Of a stretch of DNA of 64,000 bases, positions 49,823-60,752 are shown one piece after another. Under the pieces are notes generated by a model. It did no database searches and had not been told where the DNA came from. It was given only the letters and a program-made list of their open reading frames with translations. Made by a program: the position numbers and the translations under genes. Positions within the stretch are counted from its first letter, which is position 1. Each line of letters opens with the position of its first letter. The stretch is taken from contig VGCZ01000002.1 of the NCBI GenBank assembly GCA_016869975.1, positions 62,001 to 126,000 of the forward strand. Reading direction: 5' to 3'. Source of the DNA: Alphaproteobacteria bacterium. GTDB lineage: Bacteria > Pseudomonadota > Alphaproteobacteria > Reyranellales > Reyranellaceae.

Positions 49823-50786
49823 GCTCGCGCGCCGGACGCTGGCCGGCGCGTTGTTTCTGCCCTTGGCCGCACCGGCTCTCGCGCAGACCCGTTACGACGT
49901 CGGCGCCCGGGTGATGACCGTGCCGCATCCCGGCCTCGCCTCGATCCCGGTCACGGTGTGGTTTCCGGCGCCGGGCAGCGGCGCCGTCGCCAAGCAGGAT
50001 CGCAAGCCGGCGCCCGGCAAACGCCGCCTGATCGTGATCTCGCACGGCTCCGGTGGCGGCCTCGACAATCACGGCGACACGATCCACGCGTTGGTCTCGG
50101 CCGGCCTGCTGGTCGCCACGCCGATGCATCCCTACGACAACCGGCAGGACATGAGCGGCATCGGCAGCGACCTCCAGCTGCTCGGCCGCCCCAACCACAT
50201 TGTGCGGGCGCTCGACGCTATCCTGGCCGATCCGATCTTGGCGCCGGTGATCGACCCCTCGCGCATCGGCTTCATGGGTTTCTCGGCCGGCGGCTACACT
50301 GGCCTGGTGCTGGCTGGCGCCGTGCCGGATTTCAGGCTCGGCCTGGCGCATTGCGCGCGGAGCGACGCCGATTCCTTCTTCTGCAATTCAATGAATCGCG
50401 GCGGCGTGCGGCGCGCGCGCACCGATTTGAAGGCCGCGCACGATCCACGAATCCGCGCGGCCGTGCTGCTGGCGCCGGCCTACAGCATCTTCTTCGACCG
50501 CCACGGGTTGGCCGACGTGAGCATCCCGCTGCGCATCTACCGCGCCGCCAACGACACGACGGTACGCGCCGCCACCGGCGAGGAGCACCTGCTGAAGCTG
50601 TTACCCAAGCCGCCCGAATACGTCGTGATCCCCGGCGGCGACCACAACGTATTCCTGGCACCCTGTGGCCCTGGCATGCGTGGCCCGGCCTGCGTCGATC
50701 CCAAGGGTGTCGACCGCGTGGCGATCCACCGCGTCATGAACGCGGAGATCCTCGACTTCTTCGACCGCACCTTGGGCAGGGACTGA
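49812..50786 (+). CDS. secreted alpha/beta hydrolase (dienelactone-hydrolase-like)
   Basis: 324 residues from the ATG at 49812, overlapping the end of the previous gene; a longer start at 49776 would bury the signal peptide. The N-terminus MAGRLARRTLAGALF followed by LAAPALAQ is an export signal. The nucleophile elbow is GFSAGG with S158, preceded by the oxyanion region VISHGSGGG. The likely acid and His are near the end (GGDHNVF contains His). Probably a periplasmic esterase or lipase-like enzyme; substrate unknown. Confidence 0.86.
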   Translation: MAGRLARRTLAGALFLPLAAPALAQTRYDVGARVMTVPHPGLASIPVTVWFPAPGSGAVAKQDRKPAPGKRRLIVISHGSGGGLDNHGDTIHALVSAGLLVATPMHPYDNRQDMSGIGSDLQLLGRPNHIVRALDAILADPILAPVIDPSRIGFMGFSAGGYTGLVLAGAVPDFRLGLAHCARSDADSFFCNSMNRGGVRRARTDLKAAHDPRIRAAVLLAPAYSIFFDRHGLADVSIPLRIYRAANDTTVRAATGEEHLLKLLPKPPEYVVIPGGDHNVFLAPCGPGMRGPACVDPKGVDRVAIHRVMNAEILDFFDRTLGRD

Positions 50787-50788
50787 AC

Positions 50789-51445
50789 TCAGCCGGGCAG
50801 CTGGACGTATCCTGGCCGGCCCGGCTGCGACGGCGGCATCGGCGCGCTCTTGAAGGCCGGCAGCGCCTCGCAGCGATCCGTGAAGCGGCAGAGATGGGGT
50901 AGCTGCTGCTTCAGCTCCGGCCGGATGAGCATGATGAAGCTGACAACAACCGCTGTCGTGATGTCTGCCTGACTCAGGCGCGGTGTGCCAGCGACCCATC
51001 CTGATCCGGCGTGCGCGGTGAGTTCCTCCAGTCGGCGCAATCCGCCCAGTGACTGGCTCTCATTGTGATCAATCCAGGGCTGATGAACCTTCTCCTCCGG
51101 CCGGAAACGCCGTTCGTAGAAAGCCCATTGCTGCTTGTCCATGCTGGCGAGCGCGATGGCGGTGACCTGCATGACCCGGCGCCGCTGCCGGCCGGACGGC
51201 GGCACCAGCGCGCGATCAGGCCCCACCATCTGGTCGATCTCGTCGAGGATGGCGTAGCTCTCGACCAGAGCCTCGCCATCGTCGAGCACGAGCGCGGGGA
51301 TGCGCACCAAAGGATTGTGCATACGCACCTTCTCCGGCGTCTGCACCGTGGAGGTGAACTGCAGCTCGAACGGGACGCCGAGTGCATGCAGACTGACCCC
51401 GACGCGGCGGGTGAAAGGCGACAGGTAGTGGCCGATCAGTTTCAT
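50789..51445 (-). CDS. glutathione S-transferase family protein
   Basis: 218 residues. The N-terminal thioredoxin-like domain has LSPFTRRVGVSLHALGV near 8-24 and the cis-Pro segment RIPALVLDDGEALVES; the C-terminal part is helical. No obvious catalytic Cys, so a Ser/Tyr-type GST is likely. It is convergent with the secreted hydrolase, 2 bp apart, and divergent from the cysteine hydrolase gene. Confidence 0.87.
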   Translation of the reverse strand: MKLIGHYLSPFTRRVGVSLHALGVPFELQFTSTVQTPEKVRMHNPLVRIPALVLDDGEALVESYAILDEIDQMVGPDRALVPPSGRQRRRVMQVTAIALASMDKQQWAFYERRFRPEEKVHQPWIDHNESQSLGGLRRLEELTAHAGSGWVAGTPRLSQADITTAVVVSFIMLIRPELKQQLPHLCRFTDRCEALPAFKSAPMPPSQPGRPGYVQLPG

Positions 51446-51501
51446 CGCGAAAACCTAGCAGCGCTCTGGCCGTCCGACGCATGAGGTTGCATAACACCGC
51501 C

Positions 51502-52914: not shown

Positions 52915-53679
52915 ATGGACCTCAATCTCAAGGGCAAGCGCGTGCTGGTCACCGGCGGGACCAAGAGCATCGGCCGCGCGATCGTCGACACCTTCGTCGC
53001 CGAGGGCGCGATCGTCGGTTTCTGCGCCCGCGACCAGGCCTTGGTGACCCAGCGCGAGGGTGAATGGCGCAACAGCGGCTTCAAGGTCACCGGCAGCGCG
53101 CTCGACGTGACCGACGCCGCCAAGCTCAAGGCCTGGATCGACGGCTTCGCGCGCGACAACCAGGGTATCGACCACTTCGTCGCCAATGTCAGCGCGCTGG
53201 GCAGCCCCAATACGGCGGAGGGCTGGCGCCAGGCCGTCGAGGTCGATCTGCTGGCCACGGTCGATGCGCTCGCCATCGTACAGCCGCATCTGGAGAAGAG
53301 CGCGCCCGGCTCGACCGCCTGTGTCATCGGTACGGTCGCGCTGGTCGAGGTCTCGACCCCGACCTCGCCCTACCGCTCGGTGAAGGCGGCGCTGACGCCC
53401 CTGGTGAAGTCGCTGGCGATCGACCTGGCGCCCAAGGGCGTGCGCGTCAACATGGTCTCGCCCGGTACGATCATCGAGGACGGCAACACCTGGGGCCGCC
53501 AGCGCGACGCCAACACACCGCGCTATCAGGACTCGATGAAGCGCAACCCGACAGGCCGCATGGGCACGCCGCAGGAGATCGCCAACACGGTGGTCTTCCT
53601 CGCCAGCGACCGCTCGAGCTTCACCACGGGCATCAACATGGTCGTCGACGGCGCCATCACCAAGCGCATCCAGTATTAG
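52915..53679 (+). CDS. short-chain dehydrogenase/reductase, atypical motifs
   Basis: 254 residues. The cofactor loop reads TGGTKSIG and the NNAG position reads VANVSA. Tyr and Lys of YRSVK are in place, but the Ser normally 13 residues before the Tyr appears to be Thr (VIGTVAL). The C-terminus has the usual FTTGINMVVDGA. It is probably an active but divergent SDR. Divergent from the preceding SDR gene. Confidence 0.88.
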   Translation: MDLNLKGKRVLVTGGTKSIGRAIVDTFVAEGAIVGFCARDQALVTQREGEWRNSGFKVTGSALDVTDAAKLKAWIDGFARDNQGIDHFVANVSALGSPNTAEGWRQAVEVDLLATVDALAIVQPHLEKSAPGSTACVIGTVALVEVSTPTSPYRSVKAALTPLVKSLAIDLAPKGVRVNMVSPGTIIEDGNTWGRQRDANTPRYQDSMKRNPTGRMGTPQEIANTVVFLASDRSSFTTGINMVVDGAITKRIQY

Positions 53680-53805
53680 GTCGCGTCCTCGATCCGCGAC
53701 CGGTTCTCCGCAGCGCTTGCGCCCGATGGACAACCGGGCCTAATGCACATGTCACAGGCGTCCTCGCGGGTATGGCCCGGCAAGCTCTTGTAGGAGAACC
53801 ACCCA

Positions 53806-54327
53806 ATGTCCGTTTCATTCTACGATGCCAGCGTCGCAAGCTATCTTCAGTCGCTCGACGCGGTTGGACGTTTCCTAGAGAAGTCACACGCGCATTGCGT
53901 AGAGAAGGGTATCGACCCGCAGGAGGTCGTGAAGGCGAGCATCCATCCGGATATGTTGCCCTTCCGGTTTCAGGTGATCTCGATCGCCCATCATTCGGCC
54001 GGCGCCGTCGAGGCCGTGAAGACCGGAACCTTTGCGCCGCCAAAGGATCCCGGAACACTCGATTGGAACGGCCTCGCGCAACTCGTGTCGGCCGCGCGAA
54101 CCGCGCTGGGCGCGGTCGATCGGGCGGCGTTCGAGGCGCAGGCCGACAACGACGTGGTCTTCAAGCTCGGCGAGCGCGCGATTCCGTTCCGGGCGAGCGA
54201 CTTCATCCTGTCGTTCTCTCTGCCCAACTACTATTTCCACGTAACGACGGCCTACGACATCCTGCGCGGCCGCGGCGTTCCCCTCGGCAAGCGTGACTTT
54301 CTCGGCATGTTCCGCATGAAGCGCTGA
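53806..54327 (+). CDS. DUF1993 family protein
   Basis: 173 residues. The pattern FYDASVASYLQSLDAVGRFL at the start and the central HPDMLPFRFQVISIAHHSAG are those of DUF1993, a helical bundle related to DinB-like proteins. No metal-triad function has been established for the family. An AGGAG ribosome site lies upstream. It ends 32 bp before the convergent peptidase gene. Confidence 0.88.
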   Translation: MSVSFYDASVASYLQSLDAVGRFLEKSHAHCVEKGIDPQEVVKASIHPDMLPFRFQVISIAHHSAGAVEAVKTGTFAPPKDPGTLDWNGLAQLVSAARTALGAVDRAAFEAQADNDVVFKLGERAIPFRASDFILSFSLPNYYFHVTTAYDILRGRGVPLGKRDFLGMFRMKR

Positions 54328-54359
54328 CGGTTGGGCCGCCTCTCCGCCGGCGCACACGG

Positions 54360-55862: not shown

Positions 55863-57068
55863 GTGAATCCGCCCGCCCGCTCCGCCACCGACTGGAAGCT
55901 CGCCATCCTGCTGATCGTCGCCGGCATCGCCGCGGCGACGCAGATCGGCAAGGTGCCGCCCGCTTTGCCGGCGATCCGCGCCGAACTCGGCATCGACCTG
56001 CGCGCCGCCGGCTGGTTCGTCTCGCTGGTCAATCTCATGACGGCGCTGATCGGCATCCTGATCGCGCTCGCGGCCGATCGCATCGGTCATCGCCGCCTGG
56101 TGATCTTCGGCCTGCTGCTGGGCAGCGCCGGCAGCGCGGCGGGCGCCCTGACGCACTCCGCCACCCTGCTCTTTGCGCTCCGCATCCTCGAAGGCCTCGG
56201 ATTCCTGTCGGTCGCCGTGCCGGTGCCCGCGCTAATCCTGCGCGTCACCGCCGTGGCCGACACACGGCGCATGATGGGCTACTGGGGCGCCTACCTGCCG
56301 GCGGGTGCCGGCGCGATGGCCTTCGCCTCGGCCGGGCTGCTGCCCTGGATGGGTTGGCACGGCGTGTGGTGGGCGAGCGCGCTGCTGCTGCTGGTGATCG
56401 CGCTCGCCATCGTCGCCTCGAAGGCTGGCCTGGGCGACAACGCCCTGCCGCTGGCGCCCGGCCGATCATTGTGGCGCGACATCGCCACGACCGCCGGTTC
56501 GGCCGGCCCGCTCGCCATCGGCATCTGCTTCGGCCTGTATTCGGGCGCGTGGTTCGCGCTGATCGGCTTCCTGCCGACCCTGCAGGTCGAGACCCTGGGC
56601 TTCTCGATCCCGCTGGCGGCCGCGATCGGCGCCGGCGTCATCGCCATCAATGTCTGCGGCAGCCTGGTCGCCGGGCACCTGCTGCATCGCGGCGTGTCGC
56701 GTTTTGCCGTGCTGTCAGGCACGGCGCTGATCATGGTCGCGACGGCGGCGCTGGTGTTCCTGGACTGGCTGCCGCCGCTGGCCCGCCTGGCCATGGCCTT
56801 TGCCTTCTCGGCCTCGGCCAGCGCCATTCCCGGCGCGTTGTTCGGCGCGGTTCCGGTGCATGCGCCGCGTCCCGACCTGATCGGCGCCACGACGGGCGTG
56901 CTGATGCAGTGCTCGAACATCGGCTCGCTGCTTGGACCGCCGGCGGTCGCCGCGCTGGTCTCGGCCGGCGGCTGGTCGTGGGCGGCGCTCTACACCACCC
57001 CCGCCCTGCTCGGCTCGATCGCCGCCGCCTGGGTGCTGCACCGGCGTGAGGCCGCGAAGGCGAAGTGA
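55863..57068 (+). CDS. MFS transporter
   Basis: 401 residues from a GTG at 55863, 78 bp from the divergent peptidase. About twelve hydrophobic segments; the loop between helices 2 and 3 has ADRIGHRRL, the major-facilitator signature. The length and the N-terminal PALPAIRAELGIDLRAAGWF resemble the cyanate/nitrate-type (CynX/NarK-like) group. Substrate unknown. Its last codons and stop lie inside a 25-bp sequence repeated before the dsbA gene. Confidence 0.9.
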   Translation: MNPPARSATDWKLAILLIVAGIAAATQIGKVPPALPAIRAELGIDLRAAGWFVSLVNLMTALIGILIALAADRIGHRRLVIFGLLLGSAGSAAGALTHSATLLFALRILEGLGFLSVAVPVPALILRVTAVADTRRMMGYWGAYLPAGAGAMAFASAGLLPWMGWHGVWWASALLLLVIALAIVASKAGLGDNALPLAPGRSLWRDIATTAGSAGPLAIGICFGLYSGAWFALIGFLPTLQVETLGFSIPLAAAIGAGVIAINVCGSLVAGHLLHRGVSRFAVLSGTALIMVATAALVFLDWLPPLARLAMAFAFSASASAIPGALFGAVPVHAPRPDLIGATTGVLMQCSNIGSLLGPPAVAALVSAGGWSWAALYTTPALLGSIAAAWVLHRREAAKAK

Positions 57069-57073
57069 CAGGA
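57049..57073 (+). repeat. 25-bp direct repeat, left copy
   Basis: Identical over 25 bases to 58582-58606. It covers the last codons and stop of the MFS gene and the first bases after it. With the right copy it brackets the deiminase gene and the decayed dsbA fragment. Confidence 0.95.
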
Positions 57074-57331
57074 AGCGCTTGGAAGCGCGACCTTGCTCAT
57101 CCCGAGCGTCACGGCGTGGCCAGCATATCGATCGATATCGCCTCTGGTACGATCTGTCGGCGACGTCGAGCCGACAGGAAGCGCCGCGAGCGCGCCATGG
57201 CGCTCGACTTAAGAGCGCGGTACGACTTGTTCCGTCTTGCGCCAACAGGGCGCATCTATCGCGCCACAGTCGATCTGACGAGACCGCCGGCTCTTGGATA
57301 CGTAACCGCGCGAAAACATCGGCGTGATTGA
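57065..57331 (+). pseudogene. decayed copy of the 5' end of the FrnE-type dsbA gene
   Basis: The frame from 57065 (88 codons) begins MTGSAWKRDLAHPERHGVAS and continues SIDIASGTICRRRRADRKRR then ERAMA. The matching region before and into the intact gene at 58600-58740 reads MTGPVNGRSLVHPLRPGVAV, then IDIVSDTICPWCYIGKKRFE and RAVA. The two align in the same frame for about 46 residues, but the CPWC active site has become CRRR. After that the similarity fades. This is a partial, non-functional duplicate; an expressed product is unlikely. Confidence 0.82.
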
Positions 57332-57333
57332 TC

Positions 57334-58479
57334 TCACTGACGCTGTGGAGCAGCCATGCCGACAGGCTGCTGCTGAGTAGCGCAATGGATGCCACCGCCA
57401 GCCTCGCCAATCGGATCGATGTTCAGGCTGACGACTTCGCGGCCAGGATACAGCTGGCGCAGGATGCTCGCGGCCGCCATGTCTTGCCTATCGTTGCCAA
57501 ACTCGGCCGAGATGACCGCACCGTTGCATACGTAGTAGTTCACATAGCTCGAGACGAAGTCGGTTTTGACGGAGCGAACTCTGGACGGGTCCGGCTCGGC
57601 CACGACGACGATATCGAGCGACCGCCCGCTGGCATCCTTCGCGCGCTTGAGAATGTCGTACGTCTCGAAGGCCGAGACGCTCCAAGGATCGCCATCCGTC
57701 TTCTTGCGCGGAAGCTGGATCAGCACCTGACCGGGTTTGACGAAACGCGCGAGGGCGTCGATGTGGTAGTCGGTGATATCCTCACCCTTGACCCCAGGCG
57801 CCCAGATCATTTTCTGGCCCCCCAGGGCGTCCAGCAGTCGAGCCTCTATCGCCTCTTTCGAACCGCGATTCCGGTTCTTGTTCACCCAGCAGCTCTCGTG
57901 CGCCAGAAGCGTTCCAGCTCCATCCGTCTCGACACCGCCGCCTTCGCCAACGACGCCACTGTTGAACAGCTTGAGACCGATATTCTCGGCTACGCGGCTG
58001 GCGATGCGCCCATCATCGTGATGCGACTGCTTGTTGCCCCAGCCGTTGAAGTTGAGCTCGGCGACCGCCAGTTCTCCGGATGCGGATCGCACGAATGTCG
58101 GGCCGGAGTCCCGACACCACAGGTCCTCGGTCGCGATCGGCCAGACGTCGATTCCAGTGCCCAGGCTTTTGCGGACAGCCGCCTTCTGGTCGGGCCTCGC
58201 CAGCATGACCACGGGTTCGAACTTCGCGATCGTCGAAGCGATCAGCGCGATGCTTGAACGGACAGCCTCCAGGGCTTTCGCCGAGCCGTAGATAGCCGTG
58301 CGCGAAGGCCATTGCATGAACGTGCGGGCGTGCCGCTCGGATTCGAGTGGCATGCGGAAGCCGGATGATCGCGCGGAAGGTCCCAGTGAGGGACCCTGGC
58401 CGATGGAATCGGAAGGCCGCAGCGTCAAGTGAGCACCAAACACGAGCGAAGACGGCAAGAACTGTCGGCGAGTCACCAT
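57334..58479 (-). CDS. exported agmatine deiminase/peptidyl-arginine deiminase family protein
   Basis: 381 residues. The start VTRRQFLPSSLVFGAHL is a Tat-type export signal, unusual because agmatine deiminases are normally cytoplasmic. Pentein-fold motifs: EDLWCRDSGPTF, GEGGGVETDG with the catalytic His region near NKNRNRG, and the nucleophile C366 in GGGIHCATQQQP. It would convert agmatine (or a similar guanidine) to the carbamoyl compound. The gene is on the opposite strand to its neighbours, looks less G+C-rich and lies between two copies of a 25-bp repeat, so it was probably inserted. Confidence 0.87.
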   Translation of the reverse strand: MVTRRQFLPSSLVFGAHLTLRPSDSIGQGPSLGPSARSSGFRMPLESERHARTFMQWPSRTAIYGSAKALEAVRSSIALIASTIAKFEPVVMLARPDQKAAVRKSLGTGIDVWPIATEDLWCRDSGPTFVRSASGELAVAELNFNGWGNKQSHHDDGRIASRVAENIGLKLFNSGVVGEGGGVETDGAGTLLAHESCWVNKNRNRGSKEAIEARLLDALGGQKMIWAPGVKGEDITDYHIDALARFVKPGQVLIQLPRKKTDGDPWSVSAFETYDILKRAKDASGRSLDIVVVAEPDPSRVRSVKTDFVSSYVNYYVCNGAVISAEFGNDRQDMAAASILRQLYPGREVVSLNIDPIGEAGGGIHCATQQQPVGMAAPQRQ

Positions 58480-58581
58480 AACGTCATAGTATGATGGCGT
58501 GTCCTCGGATCAAGCTGTCTATCGGCTCGAGACTGCCGACGGGAGTTCGTGGAACAACGCGTCGCGCGCTGCACAGGCGCC

Positions 58582-58606
58582 AGGCCGCGAAGGCGAAGTG
58601 ACAGGA
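58582..58606 (+). repeat. 25-bp direct repeat, right copy
   Basis: Exact match to 57049-57073. Here it is not part of a transporter gene; it lies 52 bp upstream of the dsbA start and is a fossil of the MFS 3' end. Confidence 0.95.
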
Positions 58607-58657
58607 CCCGTCAACGGGCGTAGCCTTGTTCACCCCCTACGGCCTGGAGTTGCCGTC

Positions 58658-59320
58658 ATGTTGATCGATATCGTCTCCGACACGATCTGTCCGTGGTGCT
58701 ACATCGGCAAGAAGCGCTTCGAGCGCGCCGTAGCCGAAAGCGGCCGTGCCGACGTCATGGTCGCGTGGCGCCCGTTCCAGCTCAATCCCGACATGCCGGC
58801 CGACGGCATGGCGCGCGAGGCGTACCTGAAGCTGAAGTTCGGCGGCGGCGACCGCTCGAAGCAGATCTACCGCGCCATCGCCGAGAACGGTGCCGAGGAA
58901 GGGATCAACTTCCAGTTCGACCGCATCCAGCGCACGCCCAACACGGTCAATTCGCATCGCTTGATCCACTGGTCCGGCCCCAAGGGATTCCAAGACGAGG
59001 TCGTGGATTCGATGTTCAAGGCCTATTTCGAGGAAGGCCGCGACATCGGCTCAGTCGGCACGCTGATAGAGTGCGCCGTGCGCGCCGGTGTCGACGAGAA
59101 GGAAGCCCGCGACTTCCTGGAGAGCGACGAGATCCGCCAGGAAGTCGTCGCCGCCGACGTCTACGCCCGGCGCATGGGCGTGAGCGGCGTGCCCTGTTTC
59201 ATCGTCAATCGCAAGTACGCGGTGTCCGGCGCCCAACCGCCCGCGGCCTTCGCCGAGGTCTTCAACCTCGTGGCGCAGGAAGAACGCACGGCTGCCGCCG
59301 GGCAGGCGCAGTCGGTCTGA
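58658..59320 (+). CDS. DsbA family oxidoreductase, FrnE type
   Basis: 220 residues from the ATG at 58658. The redox motif is CPWC (C11-C14) in SDTICPWCYIGKKRF; a helical insertion follows, and the cis-Pro segment is SGVPCFIV. No signal peptide, so it is the cytoplasmic FrnE/2-hydroxychromene-isomerase-like branch, implicated in thiol redox and stress. The upstream frame is open to 58499 but those codons correspond to the duplicated spacer. Confidence 0.92.
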   Translation: MLIDIVSDTICPWCYIGKKRFERAVAESGRADVMVAWRPFQLNPDMPADGMAREAYLKLKFGGGDRSKQIYRAIAENGAEEGINFQFDRIQRTPNTVNSHRLIHWSGPKGFQDEVVDSMFKAYFEEGRDIGSVGTLIECAVRAGVDEKEARDFLESDEIRQEVVAADVYARRMGVSGVPCFIVNRKYAVSGAQPPAAFAEVFNLVAQEERTAAAGQAQSV

Positions 59321-59326
59321 CGCCGC

Positions 59327-60103
59327 TCAGTCGTATCGGATTGCTCCGTCGCTGTCGCGCCGCGCGCCGCGGTGATCCGCGTATAGCCTGCGCACCCAGG
59401 CAGCGCCGGGATGATCCTGCCGCCGCGCTATCCATGTGGCGAAGCCGGCGGCCATCGGCTTCGGCCGGCTCATCGGCGAGTTCGGCGGATCGACGGCCAT
59501 GGCGAGCATCGAGGCGGCGGCGATATCGGCGACGCTGAGCGTGTCGCCGGCGAGGTAACCGCTGGCGCCAACCTCCCGTACGACGAAGTCCAGCGCCTCG
59601 TCGAGCGCCACGTTGCCGTCGGCCACCGCACCCGGGCGGTCGATCCCGTTGCCCTTGCGCACCATCCCTTTCGCCAACGGCAAGGCCGCGCGATAGATCA
59701 GCCGGCGCAACGGCGGCTGGCCGTCGGCGAAGACGTCGCGGAAGTAGCCGAGATCACCCAGCAACGCGTCCAGGGTCGCGCGTCGGATACGCGGACCCCA
59801 GTCCTCGTCGAAGCGCTTCTCGATAGCCAGCGCCCGCTCGCGCGTCTCGCGATCGGCCGGCAGCAGGCTGGGTATCGCGCCGCGTCCCTCGAGCGCCTGG
59901 AGGATCGCGGCCGACCCCGCGATCCAATGCCCGTCGAGTTTAAGTACCGGCGTCGCGGTCTGGCCCGTCAACTTCTTCACCTGGCCCATATGCGGGCCCG
60001 GCAGCAGGCTGCGCCTGACATGCGGCAGGCGCTTGATGTCGAGCGCCCATCGCGCCTTCTCGTTGTACGGCGAGTAGCGGAACTGCAGCAGTTCGATGTC
60101 CAT
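59327..60103 (-). CDS. glutathione S-transferase family protein
   Basis: 258 residues from the ATG at 60103 (GGGGAGAG just upstream; a GTG at 60115 is the alternative). Thioredoxin-like part: LLQFRYSPYNEKARWALDIK and the cis-Pro region TATPVLKLDGHWIAGSAAIL; helical C-terminal domain after about residue 90. Convergent with dsbA (6-bp gap) and divergent from a TetR regulator, which probably controls it. Confidence 0.88.
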   Translation of the reverse strand: MDIELLQFRYSPYNEKARWALDIKRLPHVRRSLLPGPHMGQVKKLTGQTATPVLKLDGHWIAGSAAILQALEGRGAIPSLLPADRETRERALAIEKRFDEDWGPRIRRATLDALLGDLGYFRDVFADGQPPLRRLIYRAALPLAKGMVRKGNGIDRPGAVADGNVALDEALDFVVREVGASGYLAGDTLSVADIAAASMLAMAVDPPNSPMSRPKPMAAGFATWIARRQDHPGAAWVRRLYADHRGARRDSDGAIRYD

Positions 60104-60130
60104 GTCTCTCCCCACCGATACATGTCAATA

Positions 60131-60145
60131 AACCTATGGTATGTT
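60131..60145. promoter_or_regulatory. possible TetR operator in divergent gst-tetR gap
   Basis: AACCTA-TGG-TATGTT is an imperfect inverted repeat (5 of 6 matches) in the A/T-rich centre of the 69-bp gap between the two divergent starts. TetR proteins usually bind such palindromes next to their own gene. Seen by eye only. Confidence 0.35.
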
Positions 60146-60752
60146 ATATGTCCTACAACGGAAACACCAGCGATGCCTCCGAGCAAGGAACACACGGCGC
60201 GCAGCCGCCAGGCCATCCTCGATGGCGCCGGCCGACTGTTTCGCGCGCGCGGCTACGAGACGACGTCGATCGATGACGTGACGGCGGCGGCCGGGCTGAC
60301 ACGCGGCACCTTCTACGCGCACTTCGAGTCCAAGGAGGCGCTGTTGAGCGAGGTGCTGCGCGCCAATTACGGCCTGGTCCGCATGATGCGCGGACGCAAG
60401 GCGCGGGATCCTCAGGGGCTGCGGCGCGAGGCGTGGCGGATCCTGCGCGACTACCTGGCGCCAGCCCACATTGCCGAAGTCGGCCCTGGCTGCACCCTGG
60501 CGGCGCTGTCCGGCGACGCCGCCCGCGCCGGCCCCGAAGCGCGCGCCGCCTATGCCGAGACGCTGGCGAGCCTGGTTGCGGAGTTCGAGCGCTCACTGCC
60601 GCGAAAAGGCGCAACCGCCGATCCCGCCGCGCTGGCCGCCATCGTCAGCGTCGGGGCGGTGATCCTGGCGCGCGCCTGCGCCGATCGGCCGGCGGTATCG
60701 GGCCGCCTGCTGCGCGCCGCGGGGCGCGCGATGGCGGCCGAGCTGGAGTCTA

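Follow-up and report, generated by a model that had tools for sequence, protein, structure and literature searches.

The genomic neighborhood analyzed here, a window of 64,000 nucleotides from an alphaproteobacterial genome of the family Reyranellaceae, contains an MFS transporter gene and a dsbA-like gene that are separated by a gene for an agmatine-deiminase-like protein; this gene was very probably inserted between the two on this genome's own branch, with a long duplication of the target. The observations behind this reading are the repeat that flanks the gene, the empty site in relatives, the identity of the native copy of the junction and the absence of the deiminase from congeners. The history proposed in the initial annotation, namely, an original MFS-dsbA junction that was doubled, with the deiminase gene between the copies, is supported in its essentials: the junction of the congener G001 is covered twice here, and neither G001 nor the congener G003 carries a deiminase.

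The doubled junction and the empty site in relatives

The MFS gene (55863–57068, plus strand; PF07690, E 1.4e-32) is complete and ends inside the duplicated segment, and the dsbA-like (FrnE-like) gene (58658–59320, plus strand) is intact and encodes a DSBA domain (PF01323, E 1.9e-43) with the CPWC motif. Alignment of the repeat and comparison with congeners define a left copy (57035–57202) and a right copy (58568–58735) of the junction, both on the plus strand, which form one direct repeat of 168 bp, ungapped and at a constant offset of 1533; the repeat runs from the final 33–34 bases of MFS through the spacer to dsbA codon 26. The copies bracket 1365 bp of unique inserted DNA (57203–58567) that is missing from the congeners G001 and G003. 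Within the repeat, blocks of 39 nt (57035–57073/58568–58606), 68 nt (57091–57158/58624–58691) and 30 nt (57172–57201/58705–58734) are 92%, 74% and 80% identical, and the copies differ at 50 of the 168 bases. The 25-bp perfect repeat reported initially (57049–57073 and 58582–58606) is present and forms the core of this longer one; outside these 25 bp, the alignment of 57074–57330 with 58607–58870 is still far better than chance: its local score is 43, whereas 2000 dinucleotide-preserving shuffles average 11.4 (sd 1.6) and never exceed 20. No further homology was detected in the left copy past 57202 (score 12, equaled or exceeded in 89 of 1000 shuffles) or in the right copy before 58568 (score 10; 336 of 1000).

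Each copy is half functional gene and half remnant. The left copy retains an intact MFS end (tail, stop codon and five further bases, 57035–57073), followed by a decayed spacer and a decayed dsbA start (57125–57202); the right copy consists of an MFS-tail remnant (58568–58606), the spacer and the intact dsbA start. The fossil of the MFS tail recognized in the initial annotation is real, with 39 bases of the MFS end retained outside any MFS gene, and so is the change of CPWC to CRRR in the left copy (TICPWCYIGKKRFERAV versus TICRRRRADRKRRERAM). The extent given there for the left alignment (57065–57210) holds to within a few bases, but the right copy begins 14 bases upstream of the position assigned to it; about 20 of the 46 residues attributed to the start of dsbA precede the dsbA start codon and hence belong to the spacer rather than to dsbA proper.

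In both G001 and G003, the MFS gene (94% and 90% identical, respectively) and dsbA (97% and 95%) adjoin in the same orientation, about 56 and 50 bp apart, and neither genome contains any match to the deiminase. The direct junction expected in relatives was accordingly seen in both testable congeners; the third one, G002, is 67% complete and contains neither the MFS gene nor dsbA, and so is uninformative. Among the genomes of the family in which the two genes are linked, nearly all spacers are at most 98 bp long, often 14–20 bp, the exceptions being the present genome, with the deiminase, and G011, with a GNAT gene; in G006, the two genes are on separate contigs. Conservation of the pair across the family implies that the plain junction is ancestral and that the deiminase is a gain in this genome. 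The right copy, with dsbA intact, is 91% identical to G001 over the 168 bp and is the native junction, the left dsbA start being the decayed one.

Two other changes were observed at this junction. In G011, which belongs to another genus, a minus-strand GNAT acetyltransferase gene (G011:C45, 4829–5284) lies in a 549-bp gap between MFS and dsbA; the ends of this insertion have no flanking repeat, and it is an independent insertion at the same junction. In G003 (G003:C4, ~431360–431380), an 11-bp deletion at the MFS end shifts the frame beyond the usual stop, into the spacer before dsbA.

In chains of alignments along the contig, the sequence of the relative is covered twice at the scar, with overlaps of –167 bp (G001) and –156 bp (G003). 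It is the sole case of a doubled target among about 46 indels longer than 60 bp on the 183-kb contig (chain against G003), with no similar scar longer than 30 bp on this genome's side at the others, a base rate that is drawn from this one contig. Apart from gene-content gaps, the level of divergence from G001 and from G003 stays roughly constant over 52–63.5 kb, with nothing to indicate that a larger tract was imported.

The inserted gene and its surroundings

The deiminase gene (57334–58479, minus strand) belongs to the PAD_porph family (PF04371, 322 bits, above the gathering score of 25) and scores 238 bits against the NCBIfam equivalog agmatine_aguA (TIGR03380), below the cut-off of 381.8; by these profile matches, the product is related to, but is not confirmed as, an agmatine deiminase. 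In an alignment with solved agmatine deiminases, its conserved catalytic motif GGGIHC, with Cys366, aligns with GGNIHC of 3h7c, and its N-terminus is, by eye, twin-arginine-like (TRRQFL). Open reading frames and Pfam profiles identify it as the sole credible gene in 57203–58567, with no transposase in this interval. The GC content at third codon positions is 0.75, compared with 0.88–0.92 in the neighboring genes. In a tree of 69 relatives, the deiminase pairs with that of Bradyrhizobium sp. U87765, then with G021 of the same family, followed by uncultured Alphaproteobacteria, with G004, G011 and G031, also of this family, further out; such scattered presence fits horizontal acquisition, and the low GC3 and the closest relative in Bradyrhizobium are as expected for an acquired gene. 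Neither a donor molecule nor a close donor gene was found: the best tblastn matches, Bradyrhizobium sp. U87765 among the GTDB species and G021, reach 70% (75% for the closest relative over the tree alignment), and the non-coding ends of the insert have no match in 75 genomes of the family.

With the insertion in place, any former MFS-dsbA transcript would be broken; dsbA and the deiminase gene now diverge across 58480–58657, dead MFS tail included, and MFS and the deiminase gene converge on the dead dsbA start. A consensus search of 56900–58800 detected neither promoters nor intrinsic terminators. The conserved dsbA start is the ATG at 58658; upstream of it, no stop codon interrupts the frame as far back as a GTG at 58499 (58499–59320, 273 aa), so that the open frame spans the dead MFS tail, though not in the MFS reading frame.

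Other differences from the two congeners lie nearby. A stretch of 716 bp with a GST gene (50784–51499) is missing from both, without the loss or gain of a single base at the site, which in relatives looks like a two-gene stop/start overlap (CCATGA), and without doubled relative sequence. Between dsbA and mfd, GST and TetR-like genes (59334–60751) are missing from both congeners, which have 100–124 bp there; this is a second gain, at most 2 kb from the scar. No convincing scar was found at the GST insertions, a 17-nt pair of 82% identity at 59317/60790 being within chance. Finally, in place of about 0.7 kb at 53678–54358, G001 has 135 bp and G003 1.7 kb of wholly different sequence, which makes this a variable intergenic spot.

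Divergence of the left remnant and alternative histories

As a neutral clock, we used four-fold sites, 8.9% of which (of 10,961) have changed privately on the branch to this genome (26 of 345 within MFS and dsbA). A clock based on spacers was set aside since the spacers that survive in BLAST blocks are biased towards conserved ones; a further ground was that the simple gene caller missed some genes, the MFS gene included. By the four-fold clock, the MFS remnant in the right copy, with 1 private change in 39 bases (up to 3.5 expected, P 0.14), is consistent with insertion on this branch. The left dsbA remnant carries 36 private changes in 129 bases, compared with at most about 11.5 expected for the whole branch (P ~6e-9); its proportion of changes also departs from that of the right MFS remnant (Fisher P 0.0003). 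In the spacer, which is non-coding in both copies, there are 16 changes on the left versus 5 on the right (relative-rate chi-square 5.8). The claim that one dsbA start decayed holds insofar as the left start is dead, with the ATG changed to ATA, but the divergence is about three times the neutral expectation for the branch, and simple neutral decay since insertion does not account for it. The changes are even across codon positions (6, 9 and 8), with no sign of protein constraint, and they raise the GC content from 0.612 to 0.659, which rules out AT-drift. Three sites are common to the left and right copies and differ from both congeners, weakly placing the duplication within this branch. At 57125–57138 in the left remnant, the dsbA start ATGTTGATCGATAT has become a perfect palindrome, ATATCGATCGATAT, through two changes.

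A possible, if somewhat unlikely, source of the excess is complex templated mutation, that is, template switching at or after insertion in addition to single-base decay; this would be a refinement of the insertion with target duplication rather than an exclusive rival to it. Several features of the left copy, all identified by tests that were chosen after the sequence had been seen, point in this direction: the changes are clustered (P 0.02); 57069–57092 is similar to an out-of-register piece of the beginning of dsbA (CAAGAAGCGCTTCGAGCGCG; score 14, P 0.001 by shuffling); a perfect 8-bp hairpin, CTGTCGGC-GACGTCGA-GCCGACAG (57154–57177), is present in the left copy only and arises in just 1.6% of runs of simulated decay; and the predicted fold of the left copy (–55.2 kcal/mol) is far more stable than those obtained when decay of the right copy is simulated (–33.8, sd 6.1), although against shuffles of the left copy itself z is only –2.1. 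The hairpin does not occur elsewhere in the genome. Together, these features are suggestive of a part of the excess being patchy and hairpin-forming. However, transitions outnumber transversions (32 versus 15), which is the pattern of ordinary point mutation; once the two densest patches are removed, about a quarter of the sites that are left still differ; and a hairpin favored by selection between convergent genes would give the same picture. The more specific version, in which clustered, templated changes overwrote the left remnant at the insertion itself, through replication with template switching, seems distinctly improbable; if true, the scar would record an error-prone replicative insertion and not a simple crossover followed by slow decay.

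Alternatively, the left remnant might have been diverged already on arrival, if the incoming molecule carried a non-working junction copy from another lineage and the crossover fell inside the 25-bp identical block, so that the left copy joins the native MFS end to a donor remnant. Such an origin would explain both the drop in identity right after this block and the combination of high divergence in the left remnant with low divergence in the right MFS remnant. It is, nevertheless, unlikely: given the even distribution of changes over codon positions and the destruction of both the ATG and CPWC, the donor copy must already have been dead; no donor was found in the 75 genomes of the family or in GTDB species; and the three shared sites lean towards an origin from this lineage's own dsbA.

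The apparently excessive divergence of the left remnant for this branch could also be taken to mean that insertion and duplication predate the split of the three species, with G001 and G003 having lost the deiminase through recombination between the junction copies, which would restore the plain junction exactly. Gene loss via flanking repeats is known from the HpyAII locus of Helicobacter pylori, which recombination between its 80-bp repeats deletes or restores (PMC7494987). We consider this history very unlikely because the MFS remnant in the right copy would be equally old and unselected, yet has 1 private change in 39, because two or more losses are required, and because the three sites shared by the copies weakly put the duplication within this branch. 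An assembly artefact or chance similarity, conceivable in an assembly of 96 contigs, can be dismissed with near certainty: a collapsed or copied read would not leave the copies different at 50 of 168 bases, their alignment score exceeds that of the shuffles by 19 sd, and both copies match the junction of the congeners.

Possible routes of insertion and comparison with known systems

Under insertion with target duplication on this branch, one breakpoint would lie on the left near dsbA codon 26 and the other on the right within the last 11–12 MFS codons, and the segment between them would have been doubled, leaving each neighbor one complete copy; with breakpoints inside both genes and the target doubled, both neighbors would have stayed whole. 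The right copy would then have persisted as a working dsbA with a dead MFS tail, and the left one as a working MFS end with a dead dsbA start that decayed later. We infer that insertion and duplication were a single event. The initial annotation had the duplication come first and the deiminase placed afterwards; the history stands, except that the cargo may have come in with the duplicating event. As the most likely route, we tentatively favor a single crossover in which the chromosome recombined with a molecule that bore both the deiminase gene and a copy of the junction; the alternatives are template switching during replication and a tandem duplication that was subsequently split or replaced by the cargo. 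A search that detected the Bacillus subtilis control found no Ku gene in the present genome (rated 100% complete), so Ku-dependent end joining with fill-in is unlikely as the route of duplication. The genome also has a ComEC-family gene; this fits with DNA uptake, although such genes are common.

Sequenced single crossovers in E. coli left duplications of 109–950 bp (PMC3240628). The present locus resembles these in the partial duplication beside the inserted DNA and in its size; the E. coli cases, however, involved a laboratory plasmid with engineered homology. The HpyAII restriction-modification locus, which is flanked by repeats of 80 bp (Aras et al. 2001, cited in PMC7494987), likewise has direct repeats that allow gene loss or regain; those repeats are reported to recombine, whereas the longest identical stretch remaining here is 25 bp.

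Gene gain by insertion with target duplication has already been described, mainly in H. pylori; Nobusato et al. (2000) reported insertions with long target duplications from the comparison of strains 26695 and J99 (cited in PMC1643837). As in those cases, a gene found in one genome is lacking from the genome compared with it, the direct target repeats are long (168 bp at an offset of 1533, far exceeding the duplications made by insertion sequences), and the site is empty and undoubled in close relatives, here G001 and G003. Restriction-modification systems are frequent, although not required, as cargo in the H. pylori cases; the present insertion, in an alphaproteobacterium, carries a deiminase gene on its own, and decay has taken one of the duplicated copies down to about 70% identity. 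The unequal decay of the two remnants poses a concrete question on how such insertions form. The locus shows how a single gene can join a tight gene pair with neither neighbor broken, the target being doubled such that each keeps one good end, and provides a clear, roughly datable case from an organism other than H. pylori that involves no restriction-modification system.
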